Source: Sinohyriopsis cumingii (taxonomy: Eukaryota; Mollusca; Bivalvia; Unionida; Unionidae). From it: a stretch of DNA of 64,000 bases. Positions 5,596-23,835 of the stretch are shown here, one piece after another. Position numbers and translations under genes: made by a program. The notes under the pieces are model-generated. The model ran no database searches and was not told the DNA's origin. It saw nothing but the letters and a program-made list of their open reading frames with translations. The stretch spans positions 49,362,355 through 49,426,354 of the forward strand of contig CM068830.1 of assembly GCA_028554795.2 (NCBI GenBank), in the 5' to 3' direction. Every line of letters starts with the position of its first letter. Position 1 is the first letter of the stretch.

Positions 5596-5610
5596 AGTAG
5601 TGAAAGGGGT

Positions 5611-5832
5611 GAGATTAGCGTCAATGGGAATTAGCATTACAAACACCCCCTGGGCGAGATTAGCGTCAATGGAAATTTAACATTAACCACCCTGGGCGAA
5701 ATTAGCGTCAATGGAAATTTAACATGGGCAAAAAACCCTGGGTAAGATTAGCGTCAATGGAATTTAACATTGGAGAAAGAAAAAAAAAGGAAATATTGAG
5801 ATTAGCGTCAAAGGCATTCGAACAATGGAAAA
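5611..5832. repeat. subterminal array 1: GATTAGCGTCAATGG motif, five copies
   Basis: The 15-bp motif recurs at about 5613, 5658, 5700, 5746 and 5800 with 42-54 bp spacing; the first three units carry GGGCGA or CCCTGGG around them. The same array is present inverted in the right repeat (about 23600-23823). Regular spacing in the terminus suggests binding sites for a replication or transposition protein, but that is inference. Confidence 0.8.
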
Positions 5833-5845
5833 AAAAATATCTATT

Positions 5846-6008
5846 CTAGGGACAAAGGCAATTGAACATGGGGAATAGAGTTTGGGTCTGTCTAGGGACA
5901 AGGGGAATTGAACATGGGAATAGAGTTTGGGTTTGTCTAGGGACAAAGGGGAATTGAACATGTTAAAAAAAAAAAACTACTTTAGGGACAAGGAGAATTG
6001 AACATGGG
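5846..6008. repeat. subterminal array 2: GGGACAAGGGGAATTGAACA motif, four copies
   Basis: Units begin near 5848, 5894, 5939 and 5985. They are preceded by CTAGG or TTTAGG and separated by AATAGAGTTTGGGT or poly-A spacers. The mirror array lies at about 23425-23590. Same interpretation as array 1: possible protein-binding iterons. Confidence 0.75.
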
Positions 6009-6084
6009 ATTTTTTTTTTTTTAAAAAATTTTTTATAAAGGGGTAGGCAATTGAAAAGTCATTCTCTTTTCGAGAAATATGGCT

Positions 6085-6100
6085 GGCCCTGAAAAGGGCC
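6085..6100 (-). terminator. histone-type mRNA 3' stem-loop 1 (left inverted repeat)
   Basis: On the minus strand this reads GGCCCTTTTCAGGGCC: a perfect 6-bp stem with a TTTC loop, preceded by CCAAA and followed by AGCCA and then CTCGAAAAGAGAATGA. This is the layout of metazoan replication-dependent histone mRNA ends: stem-loop for SLBP, cleavage site, purine-rich element for U7 snRNA. It lies 29 nt after the stop of the leftmost coiled-coil gene. Confidence 0.85.
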
Positions 6101-6129
6101 TTTGGTTTCTTCTTCTTCTTCTTCTGCTT

Positions 6130-6510
6130 CTAATTTCTTCTTTTTCTCCACCAACTTCTTATTTTCTCACCTACACTCTTTTTCTTCTTTTTTTTCTCCT
6201 CCTCTTCTTTCTTCTCTTCCTCCTCCTCTTCTTTCTTCCTCTTCTCATTTTCTTCTTCTTTTTCAATTTTTTCATTCCATTTTCGTATTCTAATCCTTTC
6301 CTCTTCATCCTCCTTCTCCTCCTTTATTTCCTTCACCGCACCACTTATCATGTCCTTTGCTTTTCTTAAGTTGTTAATCTCCATTTTTACTCTATGCGGA
6401 CTATAAGAATAGTGGTCTTCATTGAGTCGTACTAGCATTTGTTCTATCATGCCCAAATTGTCAAGGACGTCTTGCAATGTTTGAAATTTATCGAGGTGGT
6501 TCGAAGCCAT
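6130..6510 (-). CDS. small charged coiled-coil protein 1 with histone-type mRNA end
   Basis: 126 residues from an ATG. Residues 1-60 are a mixed helical region containing LDKFQTLQDVLDNLG. Residues 60-112 are almost entirely Glu, Lys and Arg and should form a long charged helix or coiled coil. The last 14 residues are basic with two tryptophans (IRSWWRKRRN). The N-terminus resembles those of the next two genes to the right (LAKL followed by leucine heptads), so the three look like tandem paralogues. Upstream lie a TTATAAG box (6552-6558) and two copies of a shared promoter motif (6567, 6636). The stop is followed after 29 nt by a histone-type stem-loop. I do not recognise a function. The Glu/Lys tract is low complexity and could shrink or expand by slippage. 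Confidence 0.7.
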   Translation of the reverse strand: MASNHLDKFQTLQDVLDNLGMIEQMLVRLNEDHYSYSPHRVKMEINNLRKAKDMISGAVKEIKEEKEDEEERIRIRKWNEKIEKEEENEKRKKEEEEEEKKEEEEKKKKKKSVGEKIRSWWRKRRN

Positions 6511-6566
6511 CTTCTCTGTAGAATGGTTTGAACGACGAATACTGTGGGTTCTTATAAGAAAAGCGT

Positions 6567-6657
6567 GGACGTGAAGGAAAACATCCCCCTAAAACATAAA
6601 ATTGATATTACCTAGATCATGACCTAACATCGTGAGGACGTGAAAGAAAACATCCCC
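6567..6657 (-). promoter_or_regulatory. shared promoter motif, two copies, upstream of coiled-coil gene 1
   Basis: On the plus strand the motif GGACGTGAAGGAAAACATCC runs from 6567. A second copy with one change (GTGAAAG) runs from 6636. The gene it precedes reads leftwards, 57 nt from the first copy to the ATG, with a TTATAAG box in between. The same motif precedes the next two genes of the trio. The ACGTGA core resembles CRE/ATF or E-box-like sites. Confidence 0.65.
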
Positions 6658-6971: not shown

Positions 6972-7003
<32 letters not shown>

Positions 7004-7058
7004 ACACACACACACACATTGGCAAATTGATGGTTATTTCTTTTCTAGAGTATTGGGT
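6658..7058. repeat. spacer between tandem gene units, with (CA)n tract
   Basis: No gene. The spacer contains repeated CTACTATCCACA/CTACTATTCACA-type sequence and a CA microsatellite at 6961-7018. The block ACAAACACACAAACACATAC ... GAGTTAGTGTTTATATTCAC ... CTACCTACACACA ... TTGGCAAATTGA recurs almost unchanged at 7850-7950. This shows that whole units of promoter, gene, stem-loop and spacer were duplicated in tandem. Confidence 0.75.
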
Positions 7059-7074
7059 AGCCCTGAAAAGGGCT
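7059..7074 (-). terminator. histone-type mRNA 3' stem-loop 2
   Basis: The minus strand reads AGCCCTTTTCAGGGCT, a perfect 6-bp stem with a TTTC loop. It is followed by ACCCA and then CTCTAGAAAAGAAATAAC as the downstream element. It lies 29 nt after the stop codon of coiled-coil gene 2. Confidence 0.85.
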
Positions 7075-7103
7075 GTTTTCTTTTTAACTTCATGGACACC
7101 TGG

Positions 7104-7502
7104 TTAATGGTGGCACTTTCCAGGCCTGGCGCCACATACACATCTTGTTCCCCAGTTGCTTTTTACTTTTTTGGGGGAGAGAGCAGAGGCAGGATATGTG
7201 GCTTCAGAATCCCAATTTTCGGTTTCTGGGATTGTGAAATTTCTTCTTCTTTTCTCCTTTTCCTCCTCCTCTTCTTTGTATCTTCTCTCCTCCTCTTCTT
7301 TGTATCTTCTCTCCTCTTCTTTGTATCGTCTTTCCTCCTCTTCTTTGTATCTTCTCTCCTCCTCTTCTTTATTTCTTCTTTCCTCCTCCTCTCTCATCCT
7401 TCCTTCTTCCACAATGGCCTCCGCGGTCAGTTCGTTCAACAGGCGCCTGGCATATTCCAGATGCACATGAAGTTCCAACAGTTTCGCCAGTCTCGTGTTC
7501 AT
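7104..7502 (-). CDS. small coiled-coil protein 2 with histone-type mRNA end
   Basis: 132 residues starting at the ATG at 7502; the frame is open five codons further, to a TTG that follows a stop. The N-terminus RLAKLLELHVHLEYARRLL aligns with KLAKLNEAYVNLHRVRHSL of the next gene. This is followed by seven imperfect repeats of RRYKEEEE (residues about 35-85), which predict a continuous charged helix. The tail is short and Cys/His-bearing (CVCGARPGKCHH) and could bind metal. A TATA-like AGTATAAATTG (7551-7561) and the shared motif (7570) lie upstream; a histone-type stem-loop follows. Function unknown. The repeat codons (GAAGAGG type) are prone to length change. Confidence 0.72.
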   Translation of the reverse strand: MNTRLAKLLELHVHLEYARRLLNELTAEAIVEEGRMREEEERRNKEEEERRYKEEEERRYKEEERRYKEEEERRYKEEEEEKEKRRRNFTIPETENWDSEATYPASALSPKKVKSNWGTRCVCGARPGKCHH

Positions 7503-7550
7503 TCTGGTGTTGATCAATCAACAAGGGTAGCTGGACTGCCGAACGAGTTT

Positions 7551-7591
7551 CAATTTATACTAAAACTGCGGACGTGAAGGAAAACATCCCC
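7551..7591 (-). promoter_or_regulatory. TATA-like box plus shared motif, coiled-coil gene 2
   Basis: The plus strand shows CAATTTATACT (TATA on the minus strand) directly followed by CTGC and GGACGTGAAGGAAAACATCC (from 7570). The ATG lies 68 nt from the motif start, and the same arrangement precedes the sister genes. A degenerate extra copy (GGACCTAAAAGAAACA) is at 7644. Confidence 0.65.
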
Positions 7592-7973
7592 CTAAAAAAC
7601 ATAAAATTGATCTTACCTAGATCATGACCAAAAAACAACGCGCGGACCTAAAAGAAACACTCACTCACTTTTTTATACTACCCATTCCTATTCTAAAATT
7701 TTTTTTCATTAATCACTCCAATATACTATTCACATACGCAAAGCAATCCAATCAAACCCTCCAAATCTACTCTCCACACACCTCAAACAGCCAAAAAAAC
7801 AAACATCATCTTAATCTATTATCCATACTAACGTACGTGAGCACTTACAAACACACAAACACACAAACACATACCCTCACACTATTTAAAAAAGAGTTAG
7901 TGTTTATATTCACACTACTCTACCTACACACATTGGCAAATGGATCGTTATTTCTTTTCTAGAGTATTGGGGT
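7592..7973. repeat. second tandem-unit spacer
   Basis: No gene. It corresponds to the 6589-7058 spacer, with shared blocks such as CATAAAATTGAT, TTACCTAGATCATGACC, TACGTGAGC and GAGTTAGTGTTTATATTCAC. It differs by losing most of the CA tract. Confidence 0.7.
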
Positions 7974-7989
7974 AGCCCTGAAAAGGGCT
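7974..7989 (-). terminator. histone-type mRNA 3' stem-loop 3
   Basis: The minus strand reads AGCCCTTTTCAGGGCT followed by ACCCCA and CTCTAGAAAAGAAATAAC. It sits 28 nt after the stop codon of coiled-coil gene 3. Confidence 0.85.
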
Positions 7990-8017
7990 GTTTTTTTGTT
8001 TGCTATGGCAATCTTTT

Positions 8018-8395
8018 TTAGTTTCTAAGAATGCGATGTCCTCTGAGGATGGACTTTCTGGCGATAGGTCTGCTTCTTCGGAAAGAGAAGAAGAACTCTT
8101 TGGTCTCGATACGACAATCGACAAAGCCTCTGTCAGGTTCAGGTTGCTGCTGCTGTTGCTGTTGTTGTTGTTGTTGTTGCTGCTGCTGTTGCTGCTGCTG
8201 TCTCTGAAGTCTGTACTTCTCTGTCCATTCTTCTTTTTCCCTGTTCACTTCTTCTCTGAAGAGCTCTTCTATCAGGTCTTCAGTGACTTTTAGCATTCTC
8301 ACATTCTCTATTTCTTCTGGCTTCGGTATCAGACTATGTCTGACCCTATGCAAATTCACGTAGGCTTCGTTGAGCTTAGCTAGTTTGGAGCACAT
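8018..8395 (-). CDS. small polyglutamine coiled-coil protein 3 with histone-type mRNA end
   Basis: 125 residues from an ATG. Residues 1-75 are helical (KLAKLNEAYVNLHRVRHSL, then LKVTEDLIEELFREEV). A run of about 19 glutamines follows, encoded by mixed CAG/CAA. The C-terminal part contains DRGFVDCRIETKEFFFSF and an Arg-rich end. The N-terminus is clearly related to gene 2, so this is the third member of the tandem family, with polyQ in place of the Glu-rich helix. The shared motif lies at 8465 and a histone-type stem-loop follows. No known family recognised. Confidence 0.7.
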   Translation of the reverse strand: MCSKLAKLNEAYVNLHRVRHSLIPKPEEIENVRMLKVTEDLIEELFREEVNREKEEWTEKYRLQRQQQQQQQQQQQQQQQQQQQPEPDRGFVDCRIETKEFFFSFRRSRPIARKSILRGHRILRN

Positions 8396-8464: not shown

Positions 8465-8486
8465 GGACGTGAAGGAAAACATCCCC
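8465..8486 (-). promoter_or_regulatory. shared promoter motif, coiled-coil gene 3
   Basis: GGACGTGAAGGAAAACATCC on the plus strand, identical in its first 20 bases to the copies at 6567 and 7570. It lies 70 nt before the ATG. The TATA position (CTTTAAGAAC on the minus strand) is degenerate here. Confidence 0.65.
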
Positions 8487-8615: not shown

Positions 8616-8621
8616 TTTATT
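8616..8621 (-). terminator. poly(A) signal AATAAA for the structural gene cluster
   Basis: AATAAA on the minus strand, about 95 nt after the protease stop. I found no other minus-strand AATAAA between here and 16.1 kb by eye, so it may serve the whole 16.9-8.7 kb cluster. The protease lacks a histone-type stem-loop. Confidence 0.6.
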
Positions 8622-8714: not shown

Positions 8715-9272
8715 CTACTTTAAACAGGGCTGACAACGTTGTGAATGAAATTGTGATTTCCACTGTTGGAAATCATTAGGCCATTGATGGACACTACGTT
8801 TCCTAGCTTGAGACAAAAGATGAGCATAATGGTCACAAAACCTATCTACTTTCACATCATTTCTAGAAGAAGAACGAGGATCAAAATGAGTCACTAAATG
8901 TTCTAAGGAATAGCCCAGGCTGCGATGATGCAGAAAATACACACAGTACTGTCCACACACCAAGGAATCTGTGCCTTGTAATTTCACATTATTGAATCGG
9001 GTGGTCTGAGCATTTCTTCTCATAAAGTCAATGATATCGTCTTCCAAAGGGGGCAATCCGTACGAATCGAAATATTCCACACATCTTTCTTGAGGAAAGT
9101 AGACGGCTACCCAGTGGGTTCCTGGGAGATGACTGTCGTCCGTGTTGATCACGTAAGCTAGATGGTCTTTAGGTTTGCGATGAGGAAGTTCATCTTTAGC
9201 ACAGACAACAGGATTCCAAGAAGCCGTATACGAACTGTGGTTCAAAAGGTAATAAAGTTCCCAGGTATCCAT
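8715..9272 (-). CDS. PRO: adenain-like cysteine protease (C5 family)
   Basis: 185 residues from an ATG, close to the roughly 200 of adenovirus proteases. The catalytic signature is complete: His53 in GTHWVAVYF, Asp69 in YFDSYG, the oxyanion Gln99 in LQGTDS and the nucleophile Cys106 in VCGQYC, with the Gln-to-Cys spacing of seven seen in adenain. In this family the enzyme cleaves capsid and core precursors at (M/L/I)XGX-G-type sites during virion maturation. It is the last gene of the leftward structural cluster. A gap of 19 nt separates it from the Cys/His protein gene upstream, and an AATAAA follows. The gene appears intact. Confidence 0.95.
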   Translation of the reverse strand: MDTWELYYLLNHSSYTASWNPVVCAKDELPHRKPKDHLAYVINTDDSHLPGTHWVAVYFPQERCVEYFDSYGLPPLEDDIIDFMRRNAQTTRFNNVKLQGTDSLVCGQYCVYFLHHRSLGYSLEHLVTHFDPRSSSRNDVKVDRFCDHYAHLLSQARKRSVHQWPNDFQQWKSQFHSQRCQPCLK

Positions 9273-9291
9273 TTGTGTGTTGTTTTCTTCT

Positions 9292-9753
9292 TCACAGATA
9301 ATAATAAGTCGTCAATTCGATCCTGACTTTTTGCTTGAAAATGTCTGACAAATAACCGTTTCTTCGTTTCGTCTCCTCACTCTGATTCAGGAGAGCTTCG
9401 ATACGATGGATCTCTTGAGTGGTTAATGGTGGACAAGAATGTTCACGCAAGTCTTTATACCACTGATGCAACACGTCTTCGTCCGAGATGAGACTCCAAG
9501 CATCGTCCAGATACTCGTCCAATTTTTCTTCTTGACTCAACATCAGGCATTTATCGTGTTGAATTTGACTGGGATGAGCGTTTTGACATCCATAGCAATT
9601 TTTCTTGATCAATTCCGTCATTTTTTCGACCAAGTGTTTGGCAAAACAGGAGACTAAATGGGCTTCTTGTTCTGGCCATCTTGACTTCATCATGACAACT
9701 TCTTCGTCTTTGTCTTGAGATTCTTCTCCTTCCACGGTCTCCTCACATTCCAT
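9292..9753 (-). CDS. conserved Polinton Cys/His protein of unknown function
   Basis: 153 residues from an ATG. The N-terminal 25 residues are acidic. A central block KKNCYGCQNAHPSQIQHDKC (residues about 50-70) has a CxxC plus His, His and Cys pattern that could hold zinc. The C-terminal half is helical. From general knowledge, proteins with a CYGC...HPSQ...H block recur beside Polinton capsid and protease genes in many animals, with no assigned role. It lies between the major capsid and protease genes with short gaps (48 and 19 nt), which suggests a late or virion role. Intact. Confidence 0.75.
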   Translation of the reverse strand: MECEETVEGEESQDKDEEVVMMKSRWPEQEAHLVSCFAKHLVEKMTELIKKNCYGCQNAHPSQIQHDKCLMLSQEEKLDEYLDDAWSLISDEDVLHQWYKDLREHSCPPLTTQEIHRIEALLNQSEETKRRNGYLSDIFKQKVRIELTTYYYL

Positions 9754-9801
9754 CTTTAAAGTTTCTCCACTAGGTAAAGAGGGATAAGTCTTCCATGGCT
9801 T

Positions 9802-11115
9802 CTAATAATCTAGAATGACTTCTCTCAAACTGTTGATTTCTATGGTATTATCGAATTCTGCATACAGGATGACGTTCACTGTCTCGTCCAGTGGCTTTGC
9901 AAACTGAAGTTCCACACGAATCTGGCCAGATTTTATAGGGTGGAAATGTCCCTCGTCGCTGCCTTGGTCTGGAGTGAAATCGAAAGCCCACAAAGCGTAG
10001 CCTTCTGCATAATCCTCGTACGTAATGCCGTGACTGGTGTTGGTTCCTAACTGTCCCGTGGCTTCGTACAGCGACCAGTACGACCTCAAGTAATTCTTCT
10101 TGTCAAAGTTAGGTTCGAAAGGTCGGGTACACAAGGTCTTGCCATGGCGACTGACTTCGATCTTGGACACGTCAAAGTGTTGAAAGCAGAAAGGATTTTT
10201 AGCGATAGCTCCGTTGAAGGCTGTATTCTCGACCATACCAACGATTAAACGTTTGGGTAACTGTCCTTGGAACAGATGATCTTCGATCATGGATCGCTGT
10301 CCCCTAGGAATGGTGAAGGTTTTCACTTCTACGCGTCGGATCGGATACTTGGCGGTCGTTCTGCTCAACGTCTGACTGATGTCGTTTCCCACTTTAGGTA
10401 ACACTTCCACACGGCGTACGTAGAGTCTGGCTTCTTGGATTTTGGTTTTGTAATTATCGTCACTATCAGCTATTAAATGGAAAGCGGCACTGCTGCGATT
10501 CAGTCTCAGGCGGACATCCACTCCGTTTAGCAAATATTTCTCTTGCAACCACATGTCCAAATGCAAACGATCCATCAGTTCTAAACTCTTTTCATCTTTG
10601 ATTCTGTCTCTTCGTTCTACAAATCCATCATTGTTGTCTTTGGTTGTATTAGTTTCGAATGTTTCAAATTTGCCTGCTTCGTCAGCTTCCCATACCACAC
10701 AGGCATTGAGATGAGTGTTCTTGGCGTCTATTCCGTACGTCAAGAGATTTTCCAGGTAGGCACGGTAAGGGTAAGTATCCATGCTGCTGCTAACCAGTTT
10801 GTTGTTCAAGTACAAGTCCACTGAGCTGAACAAGGAATGCATGAAATTGTTGACGGGAGCTACTGGCTCAGTGTCTATAGCATTTCCATCCTTATCTAGA
10901 ACTTTGACTTTCAGGTACAAGCAACTGCTATTCAGATCGATGTAATCTTCGGGCTGTCCCTTGATTTCAAACTCGATGGGAGCGGAATCGGTCAATGAGG
11001 AGACGGGATGAAATTCCACCCATTGGGATTCTTGCATGGTCATCATGGGGGGGGGGGGCATGGCAAACAGATCCAGTTCCGTCTTGGAACAGGCGCAAGA
11101 CTCTCGGTGCATCAT
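9802..11115 (-). CDS. MCP: major capsid protein, double jelly-roll type
   Basis: 437 residues from the ATG at 11115. Reading can be extended to a TTG at 11136, but the stop of the upstream gene is at 11133, so the ATG is preferred. The N-terminal block VEFHPVSSLTD, FEIKGQPEDYIDLNSSCLYL and the NNFMHSLFSSVDLYLNN block are typical of Polinton hexon-like proteins (PY class), which form the trimeric capsomers of the predicted icosahedral particle. Later blocks RRVEVKTFTIPRG and GQIRVELQFAKPL fit the second jelly roll. The ORF is intact. A G10 run (11049-11058) near the N-terminus encodes Pro-Pro-Pro and is a slippage risk. Confidence 0.93.
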   Translation of the reverse strand: MMHRESCACSKTELDLFAMPPPPMMTMQESQWVEFHPVSSLTDSAPIEFEIKGQPEDYIDLNSSCLYLKVKVLDKDGNAIDTEPVAPVNNFMHSLFSSVDLYLNNKLVSSSMDTYPYRAYLENLLTYGIDAKNTHLNACVVWEADEAGKFETFETNTTKDNNDGFVERRDRIKDEKSLELMDRLHLDMWLQEKYLLNGVDVRLRLNRSSAAFHLIADSDDNYKTKIQEARLYVRRVEVLPKVGNDISQTLSRTTAKYPIRRVEVKTFTIPRGQRSMIEDHLFQGQLPKRLIVGMVENTAFNGAIAKNPFCFQHFDVSKIEVSRHGKTLCTRPFEPNFDKKNYLRSYWSLYEATGQLGTNTSHGITYEDYAEGYALWAFDFTPDQGSDEGHFHPIKSGQIRVELQFAKPLDETVNVILYAEFDNTIEINSLREVILDY

Positions 11116-11132
11116 TTTTTTGTTGCAGTGTC

Positions 11133-11549
11133 TCAATAATCGAAAACGTCTAAGTCTCGAACGGTTCTTCTTTTCTTGGCCTTTCTAGCTTGAAGTCTGG
11201 TGAAAGGGTGTTTTCTTCGTCGTCTCTTTCTGCCTTGTCCTTGCTGAATGCTTGACTCGGTAGCGTGCAGGGCATTTATAGGTGTGTCTTGTCGGCCCAA
11301 AAGGTCTTTACCCGTTTGCAGCAAGACATTTTTGCCTGCCCTCATGAAGGCTTCTTTAGGGTTTTGTTTGTCGATGATGACATTTTGGAGAAATTCTTTG
11401 CCTTGTGTCAGTGCCGCATCTTTCAAGGCGTGCAATCCGCGTGTCACCATCGGTTTCAACACCGGGGCCACCGAACGAAAGGCCGATTTTAACATATCTC
11501 CTAAACCGTGTCCTCGCTGTCGAGCAACCCCTCGATACACTGGATACAT
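11133..11549 (-). CDS. small basic virion protein (adenovirus core/pVI-like)
   Basis: 138 residues from an ATG. Residues 12-60 (RGHGLGDMLKSAFRSVAPVL and following) form an amphipathic helical segment beginning with a Gly-rich stretch like those of adenovirus-type minor capsid precursors. Residues 105-130 are strongly basic (KRRRRKHPF, RKAKKRR) and suit nucleic-acid contact or nuclear import. It lies between penton-like (3-nt gap upstream) and major capsid genes, the usual Polinton neighbourhood for a capsid-lining protein. GHG-L near residue 14 could be a protease site, an inference only. Intact. Confidence 0.8.
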   Translation of the reverse strand: MYPVYRGVARQRGHGLGDMLKSAFRSVAPVLKPMVTRGLHALKDAALTQGKEFLQNVIIDKQNPKEAFMRAGKNVLLQTGKDLLGRQDTPINALHATESSIQQGQGRKRRRRKHPFTRLQARKAKKRRTVRDLDVFDY

Positions 11550-11552
11550 GAC

Positions 11553-12467
11553 TTACGAGTCGTGAGAGAACCGTTTTCGAAAATGGAGTTTCACCGTGAT
11601 TTTTCCTTTGGTGAATGGAATATTTTGTCCCAAATCTCCTTTTATAGCAATGTTGACCGTGTCCAAATACGACTTGCTGACAGGCAAATAATGAGGATGC
11701 ACAAATTCCCGGTGGACGTGATAGGTGTTTCCACCTTCCTGGTCACTGGTCGTGGTACTATCCACTTTGAAAGGAATGACACGCAGTAACGGTACAGAGG
11801 TGTGTCCCACCACGTTATACTCCACCACATCGGAGAACATGAACATCAAATTCAGTACTTGGTTCAGTTCTACAGGGAATCGAAAAAACTTGTAAAATTC
11901 CGTATTGCTGTTGATCTTCGGTTTAAAATTTGGAGCCATTTTTGTGTCTCCACCTAAAATATCAAACAAGTCACGATTAAAACTGATGGACAACGTTTGG
12001 GTATCCTGAAATTTCATCAGTAAGCGACGAGCCACTTTATGGTACTCCAGGGTGACACTTTTTTTGACTCTGTTCAGGGCTTTGCCAAAGGCGAACTCGA
12101 ACCTGGAAGTAATGGTGTCCACCAAATGTTGGCCACTAAAATAAAACCCTGCCGGAATTTTCAAGGTGTAGATATTGAAGGGTGAATTGTTGGATGGTCT
12201 TGTGTCCCCTGAAAACCCGATGTCATTCATGGCTTCTTGTAATTGTTGGTTCAGGATTACGACCTCAAAAGTGTTTTGCTTTTCGGTGATGTTTTGGATT
12301 TGTGTAGGGCGAATCATTTCTACTAAAGAAACTTCCCAATGGGCTTCGTGATCTAACTCGATGGCTTGAGGTAATTTAGCCGTGTAACAGCACAACGTGT
12401 TGTGGGGAAACACCTCCGTGGAACTGTCACTGGGTAAGGTTAAGTAAAATTGGTTTTGGTGACTCAT
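11553..12467 (-). CDS. penton-like minor capsid protein (PX class)
   Basis: 304 residues from an ATG. The start FYLTLPSDSSTEVFPHNTL and the block HWEVSLVEMIRP are highly characteristic of the conserved Polinton minor capsid protein, modelled in the literature as a single jelly roll at the vertices. IYTLKIPAGFYFSGQHLVDTI follows at residues 84-105. The ATG overlaps the stop of the upstream membrane-protein gene as ATGA, so independent initiation or termination-reinitiation is needed. Intact. Confidence 0.9.
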   Translation of the reverse strand: MSHQNQFYLTLPSDSSTEVFPHNTLCCYTAKLPQAIELDHEAHWEVSLVEMIRPTQIQNITEKQNTFEVVILNQQLQEAMNDIGFSGDTRPSNNSPFNIYTLKIPAGFYFSGQHLVDTITSRFEFAFGKALNRVKKSVTLEYHKVARRLLMKFQDTQTLSISFNRDLFDILGGDTKMAPNFKPKINSNTEFYKFFRFPVELNQVLNLMFMFSDVVEYNVVGHTSVPLLRVIPFKVDSTTTSDQEGGNTYHVHREFVHPHYLPVSKSYLDTVNIAIKGDLGQNIPFTKGKITVKLHFRKRFSHDS

Positions 12468-12883
12468 AATTCCAGAGTTCTGTGGCTGTCCGAGGGGTTA
12501 GTGGATGTCAGAGGCGTGTCCCCGCCCAAAATGGGGTTCTGGTTGTGGTTGTTGTTGGAGTGGTGACTGGCACTGGCACTGGATACAAGGTTCCCGTGGT
12601 TCCCGTTCGAGGAGAATTTCAGGGAGGGATTGGGAAGCAGGTAACCGATGCAACTGCTCAATAAAATGGTCCACAATTGTTTGTGTCCTTGTTGCAAACT
12701 CAAATTGGCAATGGCTGCCCCGATGACACAATACACCACGAAGATTTGGCAGAAAAAGACGATTTGCGTTTTAGGCACACGTTCTCCACACCACACCCAC
12801 AAGGGTTGTTTTTGTAAATCTTGCACAGAAGAACTAGGTGAAGGAGGAGTGGTCGACGTAGCTGCGTCTGTGTGAAAGGGCAT
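12464..12883 (-). CDS. small Polinton membrane protein, two transmembrane segments
   Basis: 139 residues from the ATG at 12883; a GTG three codons upstream is an unlikely start. A Ser/Thr/Pro-rich N-terminus is followed by two hydrophobic segments, IVFFCQIFVVYCVIGAAIANL (split here as IVFFCQIFVV and YCVIGAAIANL) and WTILLSSCIGYLLPNPSL. The tail is polar and Asn/Ser-rich. Proteins with a LSLxxG...LWxxLLSSxxGYLLPNP pattern recur between integrase and penton genes of Polintons, with role unknown; membrane remodelling or an internal membrane are possibilities. The integrase stop lies 5 nt upstream, and its own stop overlaps the penton-like ATG. Confidence 0.82.
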   Translation of the reverse strand: MPFHTDAATSTTPPSPSSSVQDLQKQPLWVWCGERVPKTQIVFFCQIFVVYCVIGAAIANLSLQQGHKQLWTILLSSCIGYLLPNPSLKFSSNGNHGNLVSSASASHHSNNNHNQNPILGGDTPLTSTNPSDSHRTLEL

Positions 12884-12888
12884 GATGG

Positions 12889-13996: not shown

Positions 13997-14016
13997 TTTT
14001 TGTGTTGGTTGGTGTG

Positions 14017-14655: not shown

Positions 14656-14704
14656 AGGGTTGTCAGGGGTCAATTCTGAGATCTTGGGACTTCCGAGGGC
14701 CTTT

Positions 14705-15091: not shown

Positions 15092-15147
15092 CTTTGAGTC
15101 TTCAGGAGCACCAAAAAAACACTGATACCCCCGACTTGGTCACAGGT

Positions 15148-15159
15148 CTTTTTTATACT
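15148..15159 (-). promoter_or_regulatory. TATA box, small hydrophobic virion gene
   Basis: Minus strand AGTATAAAAAAG. It overlaps the very end of the upstream reading frame (TAA at 15153-15155), so promoter and coding end share bases. Confidence 0.6.
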
Positions 15160-16073: not shown

Positions 16074-16111
16074 GTTCGCACTGTGAGTGAGACAGACGAA
16101 AAAGAGTCTGA

Positions 16112-16123
16112 GGTTTTTATAGA
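16112..16123 (-). promoter_or_regulatory. TATA box, minor virion gene
   Basis: Minus strand TCTATAAAAACC, about 40 nt before the ATG at 16073 and just after the ATPase stop at 16129. Confidence 0.6.
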
Positions 16124-16128
16124 TTTTT

Positions 16129-16872
16129 TTATGTGGAGTGAAATGAAGTCGAGGACGTAGACGTGTACAGGACAGGCCCTCCGTCTTGGCACCAGTGGTG
16201 AAACAAGTGGGTACGAAATCTCAAATCCTCGGGGGTCGTAGGTTTCAAATCGACGAGTAAATAGGCGTGTGGAGTTTGAGTGGCATCGTCGTATGCCTGA
16301 GTCAGCCAAGGCGTTCCTAACTGTTTGGCTAAGACTTGCACTTGCGATTTATCTCGAGGGCTTTTAAACAAGACCACGTAATGCGCATTGAGACTGATGG
16401 TGCGATGGGCTTTACTTTGTTGAAACAAATTTTGGGTGATGTAAACGACACTGGCATTACGGTGATGCCCTTTGCGCGTAAACCACAGTTTAATTTCTTC
16501 TTCGTCTTCTCCTAACATGTCGTCGAAAATGACCAAATGGGTTTGACGGGAGTCATATACGATGCCGTCGGCTTCTTTAGGAATGCCTTCCACAAACACG
16601 ATGGAATCGCCTTGACTTTCTCGCAAGAGGCTGTACGCCGATTGCCACTCTTTGTAACACCACACGATCCGCTGAGGTGGTCGATCGATCAAATGATGTT
16701 TATGTTCGATCAAACGTTTGACAAATTCGGTTTTGCCTGAACCGCTAGGTCCAGCAATGAGCATGTTAAAGGGATGGCGAAGATACAAAGCCTCCCAACT
16801 GGCACGATCTAAGTGTTCGTCGATGACTTTGACAGTGGAGGAAGAGGGAGCAGAGACAGCAGAGTTAGCCAT
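16129..16872 (-). CDS. ATP: FtsK/A32-type genome packaging ATPase
   Basis: 247 residues from an ATG. Walker A is GPSGSGKT at residues 41-48, Walker B is THLVIFDD with Asp117-Asp118, and a sensor-like VVYITQN sits at 142-148. Length and motifs match the Polinton packaging ATPase of the HerA/FtsK superfamily, which drives DNA into preformed capsids. It is the first gene of the leftward structural cluster. A TATA box at 16918-16927 lies about 45 nt upstream. The C-terminus ends in a Ser/Thr-rich stretch. Intact. Confidence 0.95.
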   Translation of the reverse strand: MANSAVSAPSSSTVKVIDEHLDRASWEALYLRHPFNMLIAGPSGSGKTEFVKRLIEHKHHLIDRPPQRIVWCYKEWQSAYSLLRESQGDSIVFVEGIPKEADGIVYDSRQTHLVIFDDMLGEDEEEIKLWFTRKGHHRNASVVYITQNLFQQSKAHRTISLNAHYVVLFKSPRDKSQVQVLAKQLGTPWLTQAYDDATQTPHAYLLVDLKPTTPEDLRFRTHLFHHWCQDGGPVLYTSTSSTSFHST

Positions 16873-16917
16873 AGTGTGAGAAATGTCACTTGTGACACGA
16901 AAACAATCAAGACAAGA

Positions 16918-16927
16918 GTTTATATAC
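16918..16927 (-). promoter_or_regulatory. TATA box, packaging ATPase
   Basis: Minus strand GTATATAAAC, about 45 nt from the ATG at 16872. The start of the structural cluster is thus well marked. Confidence 0.7.
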
Positions 16928-16943
16928 TTTTTTTCAGAACACG

Positions 16944-16949
16944 TTTATT
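16944..16949 (-). terminator. poly(A) signal AATAAA after the polymerase/small Cys gene
   Basis: Minus strand AATAAA, 65 nt after the last stop of the small Cys-rich frame and about 390 nt after the polymerase stop. It lies just before the ATPase TATA box, so one transcription unit ends and the next begins within 30 bp. Confidence 0.6.
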
Positions 16950-17013
16950 GAATGTTTCAAACATGAATACGAAAGACAAAAATACGTAAAAGTCAAAGGC
17001 TTAAGTATAAGGA

Positions 17014-17305
17014 TTAAAGGCACATGATAACCATCAACGTGGAATAAACACAAGTGTCTGTACAACATGTTTTGGGTAATGTTCTAACCAGTTCTATAGT
17101 AGGGGGTAAGGTCACACAAGTGTCCTCCCGAAAGGGTCTTTCAGGCCTGTCCACGACAGTCCCGTCCTGGGTGACGGGTTCTTCTAGCACCGTCACTAAC
17201 ACAGGTTGAAAAGTCGCAAGGCTCACAATCGCATTCCACTTCAGAAGCCCCACACTTGAATTGTGCCTGTCTAAACTTGTTTTGTGTCTCTCTGAAAGTA
17301 TTCAT
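17014..17305 (-). CDS. possible small Cys-rich protein between polymerase and ATPase, one frame break
   Basis: A TATA box (17361-17370) inside the polymerase 3' end and an AATAAA at 16944 bracket this segment, so a short transcript is plausible. From the ATG at 17305 one frame gives a 56-residue peptide with CGASEVECDCEPC. A second frame continues to 17014 with TCCTDTC and a hydrophobic end (YSTLMVIMCL). A one-base difference at the four-base A run 17209-17212 would connect them. The product would be rich in Cys and could be disulfide-bonded or metal-binding. It may also be non-coding; I recognise no family. Confidence 0.35.
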
Positions 17306-17337
17306 CTTGCTCGCTCGGTCTTGGTAGTCACAATGAA

Positions 17338-20300
17338 CTATCGATCTTGCCTATGGTTCCTTTTTATATACAGACCAATACCGACGTGTCCATACGGTAA
17401 GGTGAAATGATTGGAAAGTCGCACTCGATTCTGGTACACGATTTGATAGACTTTTTCCAAGGGTCGACTGACGATGTGGTGAGTAGTTAAACGTACAATT
17501 TTGTTCGGTTGATAGGTGGTCACTTTAAACTTTGCATCCTCTCCCGATTGCAAGGCTTCTTTCAATACCCCAAAGTTCACCACACGACTGGTACGATAAT
17601 TCAGAGTCAATCCTTTCACTTTACACGTCGTGTGCAATTCTCCTTGTGGGTCCTGGTATTCGTAGCCGTAATTTTTGGGACCACCACTGACGAAACGTAG
17701 AATCTTGTCGTCGGGATGCTCGTCTGTCCAGGCTCCTAAACGGTCTCCTTCGATGTCAGGGTGCTGTTGACTCGGGTGATGGATGTAAATGCAACTGTCC
17801 GTGTCAAAGTACAGGACACGTTCCCCTAACAGTTCTAAAGCTTCGTACAATTTTAAGCGAGCATGAGCTGTCACGTAAGCCGCAATGATGACATTTCCAA
17901 AGGGGTCGTCTTGTACAAAGTCCAGATCTTCTTCGTAATTGACCAAGATCAAATCCTCTCGAACGACGTCCACGTGTTTCATGTATTTGGTTTTGTCGTG
18001 AATCATCTGAAAGTAGCGGGAAGGTTCTGTCAAATATTCCGTCTTGGGTAAACACGGTCGTTGTGCCATTTTACCCCACAAGCAATTTAACATCACTTTG
18101 GCAAACGACCGCCTGCCTTCGTTTTTCTCGATGTGGTCTAAAGAGATGCCTTCTTGTTCATAGTATTTCTCTTTGAATGTCTTTTCGTCTTCGGAAGTGT
18201 GACACCAGGAAGGATAGCCGCTGGCTTCTTGCTTCAGTTTCAAAAAGGCATCCACGTAGTCGGCGAAAATGCCTTTCTGACTGGGGTCACCCTTGTGGTA
18301 TTGTTGTGTCTTGGGAAAGTGGCAAATTTCGTACACTTCTAACAGTTGGTATCCCATGTCCAGAGCTTTGAACAATTCTACGCTGACCCAGGTTCCCGTC
18401 AAGGCCCGTTCTTCCTGGGTGTGCTGACAAGGTTGGTCTTGGTTACACGTTTCGGCACAAGTACGACACAATGGAAACATCAGTTTGCCTTGACAATGGT
18501 GAGGTAAGACGGGATGGTATAGGTTCGTGGGAGGCAAAACTTTATACTTGATCAAGCCTTCGTATTGTCGAATGTTGACCAGGTCGATGTGTTCCGTGAA
18601 CAATTGTGGGTGCCCTGCAGGAAAGGGACAATATTTGCACACGTAAGGATACAACGAACACACGTCCAAGTATTTGATTTCTTCTCCTTTCTCTTCGTCG
18701 GCTTGGTACAGCAAACAGGTGGCATTGGTCCTTCCTCCGTACAAACTATCCCTCGGGTTTAGGGGGTCCATCAGCTTGTAACTTTCCACGGCACGTTTAA
18801 ACTCGGGATCGCTTTTCATACGGTGATCGTACTCGTGTTCCCACATTTCCACCACTTGGTATCCTTGCTGTTCTAACTTTAAGCGTCGCTGACAAGTGTC
18901 CTGGTACAAGTCTTCCATGGTTCGTTGTAAAAACTGATTTTTAGTGCTACGATCAGGGTAACAGACGGGACATCCGTGAAATAAGCAACCGTTAAACTCG
19001 TACACGATCTTGGGGTTTTCTAAGTCCCAGCCATCGACCGAATACGTTCCGATGGTCTTTTCACCCCCTCCGTTGCGGGCATGCTGAATCCACTTGTCTT
19101 CCTTGTCGCACAAGTAATGTAACCAACGTAGGGCTTTGACCGAGTATTGACGTTTGACATAGTGGGTCGTTTGAGGACTGATGACAGCCACGGTGTTTTC
19201 AGGCATGAATCGTTGTCGATACACTAAGGAACACGCTTTGGCAATGGTGCAATCTTCTTTCAAAGGATCGACCCCTCCGTGTTCCATGAACAGTTCTCGA
19301 AATTTTCCACAGCAACGCCGTAAAATGTCCACGTCGGAACGACAATACTTTAGCATTTCTTCCTGAAAGTCGAAAGGGTCGGAGACGTGAGTCTGGTACC
19401 AAGCGTAGAAAGCTTCTCGTTGTTCGGTACGCATGTTGTCGGGGTCGTAATAGTGAGCCTCAGGCAAATGGGGTAGAACGGCGTGTTGATTGGCTTCCGT
19501 ATTGAAAAAGTGTGGAAAGTACCCTTTAGCCATTTCTGTCATTCCAAACGTTTTAGGCATTCGACTCAAAGGCATGGCCAAATAGCTCATCGAATCTTTA
19601 AACTGCACTTGTCCCACTTGCATGAAAATGATTTTGGCTCCGTTGAAAGTGACTTTAGGACGTTCGGTGCCTTGTTCCGTATAGTATCTGAGAAGAAACT
19701 GTCCATCGTATCCGGAGAAATTGTGAGCCATCACTGTGGCATGACGATGACAATCTCCGTAACGTTCGATGTCCTCTTGGCTCCACGTCTTGTCGATGGG
19801 ATCTAAGACCCATTGGGCAAAATCGGCTAACGTGTTCGGTGCTCGAAAGATTTTTTCACGCCCTCCGGGAATCTTGCTGCAGTGAGGGCAATGACTGAAG
19901 ATAGGTTCTTGAATGCACTTCTCGCACGCTCGATGAGCCACGCAGAAATTAGGAATGTGAATGCCAGTCTCTTGCATGCATTCGAAATCGAAAAAGATGA
20001 AATTGCCTTTCTTCTTGTGACCGTCCTCTTTCTCTGGTGGGGGTTGGTATTTTTGCACGTAGCATTCGTGTTTCAAGTCCACGATGTGGTGACAAATGTG
20101 ACATTTTTCTTTCCTGAACATACGTGTGCCTTGGCATTATTGGTACGTAGGCCTTGTCGACACGTAGGGCACAGTCTCAGCAGCTGACAAGCACATTTCT
20201 GCTGTGAACCTTGCGTCTTCAGATGTTGTTGGTAACAGGCAGGGCTGACAAACGTGCGCAGACAAGCAGGACAATGTACTCTTTCTTGTCCTTCGCTCAG

Positions 20301-21410
20301 ACAGGGTGGAGAGGCCAAACATCCTGGGCATTTCCATCCGCAATGTTTGTGTTGCTCTCGATTGTTATAGCCATAGTCACATTTCTCACAGTAATAACTG
20401 TATCCCAGGAATCCAGTGATAGTGGTAATGGTATCGAAATGGTCATCGTGATAATAGACATGAATGTATTTTCCGTCCTTAAAGTCGTTCCCTCGAAACA
20501 ACAGAGGCCCAGGCACTTCTTGAGGGTGCACTTTCAAGGTGTAGCGTGGAGCTAGGACATCTTGCAATTTTTGCATTTCAGGAATGCCACAGGGTGTGTC
20601 TTTGGACAGGCCAGCTTGTTTCAACAGGAGTTCTGCTTCGTTTCGTTGTTTGGCTCGGTCCGATTGTTGAATAGTTTTCCATGTTCTTTTCCATTCTGCC
20701 GTGTCGTTCTTGTTGGCATAGGTTCGTCCCACCACGATGGCTCGGGCTAAACACATCTGGTCTTGAGGGTTGTTAATTTGGACGAGACTCTTTTTGGTGC
20801 TGCGAAGGTCGTTCACCAATAACACCTTATTGCGTTGTCCGGTCCCTTGAGGAGGAGAGACGTGGGCCATTTTCAGTGTGGCTTTACCATCGGTGATGTC
20901 AAACTGGTCATTAGATTGTTGTACGTGTTGAATCTTGTCCATGACTTTGGAAGGGGTTAGTTCTGCGGGTCTGCTAAACTCGATCCAAACAGGGGATTTC
21001 AAGCTGTCGTGATCTATGGATAGTGTCAAGCGATCGTCTTCTTTGGGTTGACATTGTCACTTGAGTGCGGTGAGCAAAGAATCCCACATCTCGGTGATAA
21101 ACCCTTCTGCTTTCTCCAATGGTACGTCGGACTTGAAATCTTTAAACTTCACTGTGTAGGTGTAAGCCGTGGTTCTAAATTTTCTAGAGGAGCGCTTTTC
21201 CGTCTCTGGAATGGAATAGTACTTTTCAGGGTTAACTAAGGGTGGTGAACTTTGTTTAGAGGGTTCGGATTCTGGTTCACTCATGTCCTCTTCAAAATCA
21301 CTGGCATGAATTTGTGCCAAGACTTCAGCTCTGGTACGAGGCGATAGATCACGTTTCTGCCTCTTACTTTCTTCTTCTTCTTTCTTCTCGAATGAATAGG
21401 ATCGTTTCAT
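17338..21410 (-). CDS. POLB: protein-primed family B DNA polymerase, interrupted by one TGA and one frameshift
   Basis: Starts at ATG 21410. The N-terminal part (to 21060) has the FKDFKSDVPLEKAEGF block usual for Polinton polymerases. An in-frame TGA at 21057-21059 follows, then the same frame continues through KSLVQINNPQDQMCLARAIV and Cys/His clusters. A missing base in the T5 run 20104-20108 shifts the frame. Next come exonuclease motifs (FFDFEC, HNFSGYDG, YCRSDVD) and polymerase motifs LDVCSLYP, KVMLNCLWGK, YFDTDS and KGLTLNY. All catalytic residues are present. One added base gives a length divisible by three, about 1,357 residues. In the family it copies the linear genome by protein priming at the termini. 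Confidence 0.95.
17361..17370 (-). promoter_or_regulatory. TATA-like box inside the polymerase 3' end
   Basis: Minus strand TATATAAAAA, about 65 nt before the ATG of the possible small Cys-rich gene. It lies within coding sequence, so it could be chance. Confidence 0.4.
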
Positions 21411-21997: not shown

Positions 21998-22260
21998 AAA
22001 AGAAAGAAACAGAAGAAGTGAATGCGATTTATAAAGTGTTCTGTTGTGAATTGTGAATTGGATTGTAACTATGGAGAAAAGAATACATTAATTATATAAG
22101 GTAAGTGTCTTTGAGTTTTGATTTTAAAATAAGAAGCTACACTCACGCACTCATACACAGACATGTACTATAAGGGTAAAATGTTTTTGTTTTTTTTTTT
22201 GTTGTTGATTTTTGAGTTATTGGCAAATTGAAAGGCTATCTCTTTTCGAGAGAAGTGGGT
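21998..22260. other. convergent spacer
   Basis: No gene. Between the rightward zinc-knuckle gene and the leftward gene at 22303. No clear plus-strand AATAAA; an AATACA variant is near 22081. A T-rich tract and a TTGGCAAATTGAAAGGCTATC block related to the inverted repeat inner end occur near 22220. Confidence 0.5.
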
Positions 22261-22276
22261 GGCCCTGAAAAGGGCC
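22261..22276 (-). terminator. histone-type mRNA 3' stem-loop 4
   Basis: Minus strand GGCCCTTTTCAGGGCC followed by ACCCA and CTCTCGAAAAGAGATAGCC. It is 26 nt after the stop of the Gln-rich coiled-coil gene, and the flanks match those of the right inverted repeat copy almost exactly. Confidence 0.88.
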
Positions 22277-22302
22277 TTTTTATTTTGGTGTAGGGGGTGA
22301 GT

Positions 22303-22854
22303 TTAAGCAATCAACTTTAACTGCCTTAATCCTTTGCCACGGCCGAGGCCTACTTCTGATGATTGGATTGAAATCACTAAGGGTGGTACGATAGGCTTAG
22401 TCACAGGGTTGGCATGTTTAGCTCGGGAAGGTCGTATTCTCTTCGGTCGTGATAAAGAAGTCTGATACATTTGTTTCAGACTTCTTAACTCCGCTAAAAT
22501 GTCCAACAGTACCGTAGCCGTTTGATTTTCACCCTCTTGTTTCTTTGCTGCTACTTCTTCTTCTTCTTGTTTTTTTCTTACCTCTTCTTGTTGCTGTTGC
22601 TGTTGCTGTAGGAGAAAAGCTTGTTCCGCTTCCTTTTGTCGTTGCATAAATTTCTCCAATTCTTCTTTCTGTCTCTGTCTAAAATTCTCCACTTGCGGTA
22701 ATGAAGAATGAGACGAAGGTTCCGGAACAAATTCTTGCGAGGTAAGAAAATCCACAAAATCCCAATGTACCTCTTCTGAAAGTAAGTCCGGGTTCCCTTG
22801 GGTGGTCTCCACTGCTGGTGCACCCCAATGGATCGTTTTCTGAGTTTCCGTCAT
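22303..22854 (-). CDS. Gln/Glu-rich coiled-coil protein with histone-type mRNA end
   Basis: 183 residues from an ATG. Residues 1-50 are acidic and aromatic (HWDFVDFLTSQEF). Residues 55-115 are a predicted coiled coil (RQRQKEELEKFMQRQKEAEQ, a Q7 run, then Glu/Lys-rich). TATVLLDILAELRSLKQMY is a further helix. The tail is basic and Pro-rich (RPKRIRPSRAKHA). A TATTAAG box lies near 22902. It shares a 219-bp divergent promoter with the gene to its right, and its stop is followed by a histone-type stem-loop. It is not a histone by sequence. It may be a DNA- or core-associated protein; no family recognised. Confidence 0.7.
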   Translation of the reverse strand: MTETQKTIHWGAPAVETTQGNPDLLSEEVHWDFVDFLTSQEFVPEPSSHSSLPQVENFRQRQKEELEKFMQRQKEAEQAFLLQQQQQQQEEVRKKQEEEEVAAKKQEGENQTATVLLDILAELRSLKQMYQTSLSRPKRIRPSRAKHANPVTKPIVPPLVISIQSSEVGLGRGKGLRQLKLIA

Positions 22855-23073
22855 GTTGAATCACTGTCGCATAGATTGACAGCACACAGGCGCTAGCGAA
22901 TCTTAATAGACCACATGACGTCACAGACTGCTCTCTTCGGATTGGATGCGGACTGACTGAATTTTGTAACGCGTGTTCGGATTGGTGAATGGACTCAATC
23001 CGTTTCAATCCTTCCTCTACCTATAAATAAGCGCAGTTCACTGCATTGATTCACCTGTTCTCGTCGCCTCACG
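22855..23073. promoter_or_regulatory. divergent promoter with CRE, two CCAAT-type boxes and TATA boxes
   Basis: Contains a perfect CRE palindrome TGACGTCA (22916-22923), two identical TTCGGATTGG boxes (22936-22945 and 22976-22985; ATTGG is CCAAT reversed), CTATAAATAA (23021-23030) for the rightward gene and TATTAAG (minus strand, near 22902) for the leftward gene. The arrangement recalls divergent H2A-H2B histone promoters. Confidence 0.7.
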
Positions 23074-23307
23074 ATGTGGACCACAGTTGAATCATCCACC
23101 CTTGTATCTTCCATGATGTTTAGGACGGACATGCTCATGTATGTCCGGTCCAAGTGGACTGTTGTTGATAGGACAGATACTAGTCTATGGATGAGAAGAG
23201 TTTACATTGAAAGACAAGGATGCCTCAAGAGGGTACTTGTGTATGGACCTGCAGTTAGAAGGAGTTTAAGAAGAAGAAGAAGATGTGACAGATGCCGTCT
23301 ATGTTAA
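23074..23307 (+). CDS. small Arg-rich protein with histone-type mRNA end
   Basis: 77 residues from an ATG about 45 nt after a TATA box, giving a short leader as in histone mRNAs. The C-terminus RRSLRRRRRCDRCRLC is strongly basic with a CxxC-like pair, suggesting nucleic-acid binding. The rest contains Met/Ser/Thr-rich and WTVVDRTDTSLWMRRVYIE segments of no known type. Stop at 23305-23307, then an AT palindrome and a histone-type stem-loop 24 nt on, inside the right inverted repeat. No family recognised. The signals on both sides make it more credible than its length alone. Confidence 0.6.
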   Translation: MWTTVESSTLVSSMMFRTDMLMYVRSKWTVVDRTDTSLWMRRVYIERQGCLKRVLVYGPAVRRSLRRRRRCDRCRLC

Positions 23308-23322
23308 TATTAATATTAACAT
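23303..23322. repeat. 20-bp AT palindrome at the end of the Arg-rich gene
   Basis: TGTTAATATTAATATTAACA is a perfect palindrome. It overlaps the stop codon (TAA at 23305) and lies just outside the right inverted repeat. Role unknown. Confidence 0.8.
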
Positions 23323-23328
23323 AAATCC

Positions 23329-23835
23329 AAAGGGCCTTTTCAGGGCCACCCACATTTCTCGAAAAGAGATAGCCTTTCGATTGCCTACCCCTTTATAAAA
23401 ATTTTTTTTTTTTAAAAATCCCATATTCAATTCCCCTTGTCCCTAAAGTAGTTTTTTTTTTTTTCTAACATGTTCAATTCCCCTTTGTCCCTAGACAAAC
23501 CCAAACTCTATTCCCATGTTCAATTCCCCTTGTCCCTAGACAGACCCAAACTCTATTCCCCATGTTCAATTGCCTTTGTCCCTAGAATCGATATTTTTTT
23601 TCCATTGTTCGAATGCCTTTGACGCTAATCTCAATATTTCCTTTTTTTTTCCTTTCTCCCATGTTAAATTCCATTGACGCTAATCTTACCCAGGGTTTTT
23701 TGCCCATGTTAAATTTCCATTGACGCTAATCTCGCCCAGGGTGGTTAATGTTAAATTTCCATTGACGCTAATCTCGCCCAGGGGGTGTTTGTAATGCTAA
23801 TTCCCACTGACGCTAATCTCACCCCTTTCACTACT
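23329..23835. repeat. right terminal inverted repeat of the Polinton
   Basis: Reverse complement of 5596-6103 over about 507 bp with few differences. Ends ...CTTTCACTACT. It carries the same subterminal arrays in inverted order and a histone-type stem-loop at its inner edge, here on the plus strand. Confidence 0.95.
23332..23347 (+). terminator. histone-type mRNA 3' stem-loop 5 (right inverted repeat)
   Basis: Plus strand GGGCCTTTTCAGGGCC, preceded by CCAAA and followed by ACCCA and CTCGAAAAGAGATAGCC. One stem pair (third) is G-G instead of C-G compared with the left copy, so this stem is slightly weaker. It ends the rightward Arg-rich gene. Confidence 0.85.

Follow-up and report, generated by a model that had tools for sequence, protein, structure and literature searches.

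A 64-kb stretch of Sinohyriopsis cumingii DNA, hereafter the window, contains an 18,240-bp Polinton (5596-23835). Its ends read AGTAGT; it has terminal inverted repeats and is flanked by a 6-bp target site duplication. This one 18.2-kb element carries five histone 3′ stem-loop modules, one behind each of five accessory genes. We put at close to nine in ten the probability that these genes depend on host histone-type 3′-end processing, through SLBP and U7, because every cis element is present with host-like letters and spacing. The observed basis is sequence identity to host histone ends, the position and strand of the modules, and their conservation across copies. The base for comparison was the host genome together with four other Polinton contigs (L002-L005).

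The five modules and the host histone genes

A sequence-only reading of this DNA had claimed five stem-loops with a purine block, 24-29 nt past a stop codon and all on the sense strand of the gene. All five were present when the coordinates were checked, and coordinates, gaps and strands agree with that claim. The sites, numbered as the genes that they follow, are:

Site 1: module 6057..6108, stem-loop 6085-6100, minus strand; CCAAA, AGCCA and GAAAAGAGA; at the inner end of the left terminal inverted repeat.
Site 2: module 7031..7082, stem-loop 7059-7074, minus strand; outer A-U pair, ACCCA and GAAAAGAAA.
Site 3: module 7945..7997, stem-loop 7974-7989, minus strand; outer A-U pair, ACCCC and GAAAAGAAA.
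Site 4: module 22233..22284, stem-loop 22261-22276, minus strand; ACCCA and GAAAAGAGA; AATAAA at 22279-22284, directly 5′ of the stem.
Site 5: module 23324..23375, stem-loop 23332-23347, plus strand; one G.G mismatch, ACCCA and GAAAAGAGA; at the inner end of the right terminal inverted repeat.

Stop codon and stem are 29, 29, 28, 26 and 24 nt apart at sites 1-5, with the stem on the sense strand in all five cases. The purine core, AAAGA, begins 16, 16, 17, 16 and 16 nt 3′ of the stem; it reads AAAGAG, the mouse core, at three sites and AAAGAA at two, and the purine blocks are TAGAAAAGAAA and TCGAAAAGAGA. Sites 1 and 4 have an identical 16-mer. The outer pair of the stem is G-C in these two and A-U in sites 2 and 3. 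When both strands of the window were scanned with 4227 Rfam families, the top five matches were the five sites, all to RF00032, which makes the case for histone-type 3′ signals stronger than had been claimed. The scores were 38.4 bits for site 4, 33.9 for site 1, 31.0 for site 2, 30.9 for site 5 and 29.3 for site 3, with E values from 1e-7 to 2.7e-4; the sixth-ranked Rfam match in the window had an E value of 0.0071. The curated RF00032 cut-off of 34 bits was passed by one of the five (site 4), and site 1 fell short of it by 0.1 bit.

Identity between the sites was restricted to the module: 5′ of position -8, only 4-8 of 22 ungapped positions agreed, which is the chance level. The core pattern, with three mismatches or fewer, matched the window 11 times versus 2.77 expected in shuffles. 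Five of these matches were the sites themselves (four exact, one with a single mismatch), and the six others had two or three mismatches. A covariance model built from six sites was run on the window and L002-L005 and gave no other match scoring over 16.8 bits.

The host histone genes were found by a PF00125 search of the 2.9-Gb genome (150 matches scored among 662 candidates). They form tandem repeats of ~8.3 kb (about 8.27 kb) on C531, C14, C801 and other contigs, many of them short. In the unit L148, H3, H4, H2B, H2A and H1 lie on one strand, and all five have an RF00032 match (35.0-39.4 bits) 3′ of the gene; two further units, L149 and L150, read by pattern, have the same H3, H4, H2B and H2A stem-loops. 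The stem-loops are GGCCCTTTTTAGGGCC (H3, H4), GGCCCTTTTCAGGGCC (H2B), GGCCCTTTTAAGGGCC (H2A) and GGTCCTTTTCAGGACC (H1), and the gap from stop codon to stem is 27-38 nt. In all five genes AAAAG begins 15-16 nt 3′ of the stem, inside TAGAAAAGA or CGAAAAGG; the purine words to compare are CTAGAAAAGA in the histone ends and CTCGAAAAGA in the element. The position of ACCCA is taken by ACACA, ACAAA, ATACA, ACACA and ACTTT in the five host genes. The 16-mer of H2B, GGCCCTTTTCAGGGCC, is that of element sites 1 and 4, with GAAAAG at the same distance. Also, over the 50 nt 3′ of the stem, the stem itself excluded, each of the five sites had an alignment to one or more host histone ends that beat all 500 shuffles; this represents 25 uncorrected comparisons, of which the others were reached by 0 to 70 of 500 shuffles, H1 being weakest overall. 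Comparison with the host histone genes had been proposed as a check on the initial claim, and it bore the claim out: H3, H4, H2B, H2A and H1 share the stem, loop type, GAAAAG block and spacing with the element.

Copies in the genome and in other Polintons

A search of the host genome with RF00032 yielded 75 scored loci out of 589,472 first-look candidates, a lower bound picked by stem-loop match; the five sites of the window and the histone repeats are not included. All 75 pass the RF00032 cut-off, and they lie on contigs C1-C18 and six others. The histone signatures looked for upstream were found at none of the 75. A homologue of a window gene was found at 65, and the other 10 had no match at E <= 1e-4. 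By gene, the 65 divide into gene 4 in sense (23 loci), gene 4 in antisense, which corresponds to the position of gene 5 (28), gene 1 (11), gene 2 (2) and gene 5 (1). At 63 of the 75, a sense open reading frame (ORF) of at least 50 amino acids, beginning with ATG, ends 7-43 nt 5′ of the stem, and at 60 of these 63 the distance is 15-27 nt. In a strand control covering 200 nt on each side, with a stop at most 45 nt from the stem after 50 stop-free codons and no start codon required, an open frame abutted the stem in sense at 65 of 75 loci and in antisense at none. Random orientation of the motif in related elements, which would have spoken against the initial claim, is thus not what we found.

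The 16-mer is identical at 69 of the 75 loci, in a list picked by match. As a control outside this selection, we used the gene-4 site of 30 gene-5-type loci, four of which were not testable. The gene-4 module was present in all 26 testable copies, 17 of them exact, seven with one change and two with two, whereas the mean best among shuffles was 7.2-8.0; the control favors well-preserved copies, picked for a good gene-5 module, and some are near-identical, so these are not 26 independent events.

A word past the purine block, TTGYC, was found at 6046-6050, 7021-7025, 7935-7939 and 22222-22226 on the minus strand and at 23381-23385 on the plus strand, 34 or 35 nt 3′ of each window stem. It occurs within 60 nt 3′ of the stem in 73 of the 75 genome copies, at 33-36 nt in 71, and it is absent in L005. 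We had considered it as a word specific to the element and dropped that idea when similar words proved to stand 34-36 nt past the stems of H4, H2A and H1 in the host; H3 and H2B do not have it. In these histone genes TTGYC may act as a second downstream element.

When prokaryote assemblies were searched with the capsid protein, the four Polinton contigs L002-L005 were returned, all in bacterial metagenome-assembled genomes (MAGs), where they are probably animal contaminants. Polinton DNA is present in public MAGs of tubeworm and mussel symbionts, Breoghania and Bacteroidia. The sequence-only reading had proposed a search of other Polintons with the histone stem-loop family, and this search was positive in L005 and negative in L002, L003 and L004. 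The capsid of L005 is 33% identical to that of the window element, and this contig probably comes from another animal. Its RF00032 match (35.8 bits, over the cut-off) lies 28 nt past the stop codon of an 89-amino-acid C2H2 zinc-finger ORF and has AAAGAG 16 nt 3′ of the stem. The loop is one letter off that of the window sites, a U-to-A change; four H2B genes of C. elegans likewise differ by a single U-to-A letter in the loop, there in a different context, with CTTA for CTTT (PMC1924863). Upstream of the ORF are three TGACGTCA boxes and a single CCAAT box, an arrangement that recalls the promoter of genes 4 and 5. We saw no link between the zinc-finger gene and genes 1-5; the module therefore either moves between genes or was acquired more than once, as far as these sequences indicate. 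If Polintons have joined the histone programme in this way, L005 would imply that they did so long ago or more than once.

Searches of virus collections returned candidates that we rejected. The pattern GGCYCTTTTHAGRGCCACC had one match in IMG/VR (21.3 bits, partial), which falls within a 784-amino-acid ORF on a phage-like contig. A wider pattern had 10 matches there, none with AAAAG in the 44 nt 3′ of the stem; the seven that were scanned (L008, L009 and L015 lay outside the scan) had no RF00032 match at E <= 1. Searching IMG/VR with the capsid, integrase and PolB found no relatives, and the phage collection gave three distant polymerase matches only.

The accessory genes and the core block

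The genes with histone-type ends all lie outside the core block of the Polinton, genes 1-3 at one end and the divergent pair 4/5 at the other. These genes and the features upstream of them are:

Gene 1: 6130..6510, minus strand; 126 amino acids, highly charged; homologues 5′ of stem-loops elsewhere in the genome.
Gene 2: 7104..7502, minus strand; 132 amino acids; related N-terminus.
Gene 3: 8018..8395, minus strand; 125 amino acids; related N-terminus; no homologue in the genome loci examined.
Gene 4: 22303..22854, minus strand; 183 amino acids; one long predicted helix, possibly a coiled coil; basic PKRxRPSRAK stretch.
Gene 5: 23074..23307, plus strand; 77 amino acids, basic (isoelectric point 11.2), with an arginine-rich C-terminus.
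Identical 22-nt motif: 6567-6588, 7570-7591 and 8465-8486, minus strand; upstream of genes 1, 2 and 3, with a separate promoter-like region for each.
Divergent promoter region of genes 4 and 5: 22855..23073, no strand assigned; TGACGTCA at 22916, two ATTGG boxes and TATAAA at 23022 (plus strand).

Gene 4 has 20 homologues of 57-85% identity, with many invariant positions across the 17 that were aligned, and structure prediction gave a single long helix (pLDDT 68.9, pTM 0.27). Gene 5 has two homologues, of 78-79% identity. Open-frame homologues of genes 1 and 5 precede stem-loops elsewhere in the genome. Genes 2 and 3 are supported as genes by their common N-terminus and common upstream motif and, for gene 2 only, by two genome matches of 44-45 amino acids (~80% identity) about 1.1 kb 5′ of a stem-loop. 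The 22-nt motif is likely a promoter element of genes 1-3. Two relatives, P0131 of gene 4 and P0142 of gene 5, extend as WPISGPPTSLEKRY and KPFSGPLTLLENIY, respectively; the corresponding letters in the untranslated region of gene 4 in the window are PFSGPPTSLEKR. Both proteins appear to be translated through a lost stop codon into the module, the DNA being deduced from the protein letters. Boxes of the TGACGTCA (cAMP response element, CRE/ATF) type occur by the outer genes of three Polintons: one in the window at 22916, three in L005 at 925-1010 and three in L004 at 8189-8346, at the contig end.

The remaining features of the element are:

Target site duplication AACATA: 5590..5595 and 23836-23841, no strand assigned; insertion inside a 24-nt minisatellite.
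Left terminal inverted repeat: 5596..6108, plus strand; begins AGTAGT; 96-98% identity in the outer pieces, 74% in 6014-6108.
Right terminal inverted repeat: 23324..23835, minus strand; inner end carries site 5.
Core block: 8715..20942, minus strand; protease-like protein, capsid protein, chromodomain and integrase, A32-type ATPase and type-B PolB.
AATAAA: 8616..8621, minus strand; 94 nt past the stop codon of the last core gene (protease-like).

The type-B polymerase matched Pfam DNA_pol_B_2 (E 4.4e-41) and by family would be of the protein-primed kind. The integrase (rve, E 4.8e-10) and the chromodomain (Chromo, E 1.1e-8) are in adjacent ORFs, the integrase being broken across two frames. 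The A32-type ATPase matched Pox_A32 (E 8.2e-8), and the match of the protease-like protein to Peptidase_C5 was weak (E 0.017, under the cut-off). The protein that we take to be the capsid has 830 homologues at E <= 0.001 and no Pfam match. Among the 120 matches listed, most of them without an organism name, those with a name are from bivalves (Mercenaria, oysters) with one exception, P0041, labeled as from a symbiont MAG, Candidatus Thiodiazotropha. Neither the Rfam scan nor the covariance model found a histone-type module in the core block. Amid the minus-strand genes of the Polinton, a CCHC zinc-knuckle ORF (21546-21896, plus strand) may be a gag-like insert or a gene. Outside the element, a 149-amino-acid ORF (25288-25737, plus strand) resembles by eye a 138-amino-acid Polinton ORF (11133-11549) and is perhaps a remnant of a second, adjoining Polinton.

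Processing, its alternatives and known systems

As is established for histone pre-mRNAs and described in PMC7026596, SLBP binds the stem-loop, the U7 small nuclear ribonucleoprotein (snRNP) pairs with the histone downstream element (HDE), whose core in the mouse is AAAGAG, and cleavage by CPSF73 takes place between the two, after ACCCA. In the Polinton, host SLBP would bind the stem-loop of the five modules, the host U7 snRNP would pair with the GAAAAGA block and the pre-mRNA would be cleaved after ACCCA. The five accessory genes would then give short, intronless mRNAs that are not polyadenylated, the last property following from histone-type processing, and the capsid, integrase, ATPase and polymerase genes would use ordinary ends. 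Under the histone programme, mRNAs of the accessory genes would be made, and be stable, mainly during DNA replication. We infer cleavage, the lack of poly(A) and coupling to S phase from the DNA letters; restriction to S phase is one step further removed, because downstream poly(A) sites could serve other cells. The bidirectional promoter of genes 4 and 5, with its CCAAT and CRE boxes, suggests that promoter timing has been copied too, and transcription of the accessory genes perhaps takes place at histone locus bodies. That an animal Polinton lineage has joined the host histone regulon, with accessory genes cut by the histone machinery and expressed only during host DNA replication, is a proposition for which we regard the odds as even.

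Several observations weigh against histone-type processing. A stem of six base pairs, as initially claimed, holds in four sites and fails in site 5, where the third pair is a G.G mismatch. The claim of ACCCA or a close variant stands for sites 2, 4 and 5 (ACCCA) and site 3 (ACCCC), with a correction at site 1, which has AGCCA where ACCCA is expected. Covariation is weak: among six sequences there is one two-sided pair change, a level reached by 280 of 500 shuffles. AATAAA lies directly 5′ of the stem at gene 4. Among the genome copies, 12 of 75 have no ATG-initiated ORF of 50 amino acids nearby and one of 75 has lost the purine block, and these loci are uninformative on the frequency of histone versus Polinton signals. 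Even with filters off, no module was found in L002 (limited to core genes), L003 (with broken frames) or L004 (a partial contig), all of which may lack the outer genes. Finally, a profile search with PF15247 (SLBP) found no match among 14 candidates nor in the control genomes; the domain may be split by introns.

Some of these points would suit a captured relic, that is, an ancestral histone 3′ end inherited unused, with mRNAs ending at downstream poly(A) sites. All modules of the element are alike and could trace to one capture, the 12 genome copies just mentioned lack an intact frame, and AATAAA or ATTAAA occurs within 300 nt 3′ of the stem in four of the eight copies examined. We consider a relic unlikely, since only the module is conserved, the flanks between sites having drifted to chance level, and since the gene-4 module is kept in 26 of 26 copies, even if their selection for a good gene-5 module favors preserved ones. 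Moreover, genes 1, 2, 3 and 5 have neither AATAAA nor ATTAAA within 300 nt of the stop codon, and L005, with its divergent capsid, has the same module 3′ of a different gene. The poly(A) signals bear equally on the possibility that the accessory genes have dual ends, histone-type in dividing cells and at downstream poly(A) sites in non-dividing ones, with no strict bond to S phase. Such an arrangement is compatible with histone-type processing, and the odds of the two overlap. The AATAAA by the stem of gene 4 and the four of eight genome copies with a downstream signal would fit it, as would AATAAA or ATTAAA within 400 nt of the stop codon in host H4 and H2B. A precedent is found in the histone genes of C. 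elegans, which bear both signals and mostly end at the hairpin (PMC1924863). The four window genes without either hexamer argue against dual ends, which we regard as possible, at clearly less than even odds.

Polintons are related to virophages, and this kinship would favor polyadenylation at hairpins as in mimiviruses and Sputnik, where the mRNA ends at a palindrome, whatever its sequence, and poly(A) is then added. Hairpin 3′ ends in Mimivirus and in 16 Sputnik genes provide a precedent (PMC4402537 and PMC6723459). Those palindromes, however, vary in sequence and depend on viral genes for an RNase III-like enzyme and a poly(A) polymerase (PMC4402537). In the Polinton the sequence of stem, loop, ACCCA and purine block is preserved and agrees with that of the host histone genes; 17 of the 26 unselected gene-4 16-mers are identical, as are 69 of 75 in the match-picked list, and a Pfam scan found neither enzyme among ten core proteins. 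We therefore hold this explanation to be very improbable. Still less probable is a palindrome that acts at the DNA level within the terminal repeats, for replication, packaging or integration. The inner ends of the terminal inverted repeats do hold sites 1 and 5, but sites 2, 3 and 4 are found in other parts of the element, each of the five comes after a stop codon in sense, and the antisense control gave 0 of 75. Also, the purine block is outside the palindrome, yet block and spacing are conserved and common to the host histone genes. Histone-type processing of the five genes thus remains the reading that we prefer.

If this reading is correct, the histone 3′-end pathway can be taken over by a parasite, and in several genes. 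It would also help to place Polinton expression in time (S phase, dividing and germ cells) and account for the possible absence of these genes from poly(A)-selected transcriptomes. Our searches of the openly licensed literature of PubMed Central (PMC) turned up no account of a Polinton or other virus with histone-type 3′ ends; the main text of a study of Maverick phylogenomics, PMC8097293, has no occurrence of "histone", "stem-loop", "hairpin" or "polyadenyl".

Like the 3′ ends of animal replication-dependent histone genes (RF00032 and the U7 HDE), the modules have a 6-bp stem, a UUUC-type loop, ACCCA and a purine HDE at fixed spacing. They lie at a similar distance, ~25-40 nt past the stop codon of an uninterrupted ORF, and are near-identical to the ends of five histone genes of the host genome. 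Unlike those genes, the ones that they serve in the element are not histones but accessory genes of mobile DNA, for charged, long-helix or basic proteins. The element itself resembles other Polintons/Mavericks (adintovirus-like) in its PolB, rve integrase, chromodomain, A32-type ATPase, capsid protein and terminal inverted repeats, and in the AGTAGT ends and 6-bp target duplication described in PMC8097293; it differs in having five accessory genes with histone-type ends. As in Sputnik and Mimivirus, a parasite has adopted the 3′-end signal of the system that expresses it (PMC6723459). Their hairpin, however, can have any sequence, and a poly(A) tail comes after it (PMC4402537), whereas the element has the sequence-specific histone signal of its animal host. 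The pathway and the type of element are both known, and it is their combination, with accessory and core genes apparently set apart by the type of 3′ end, that appears to be new.

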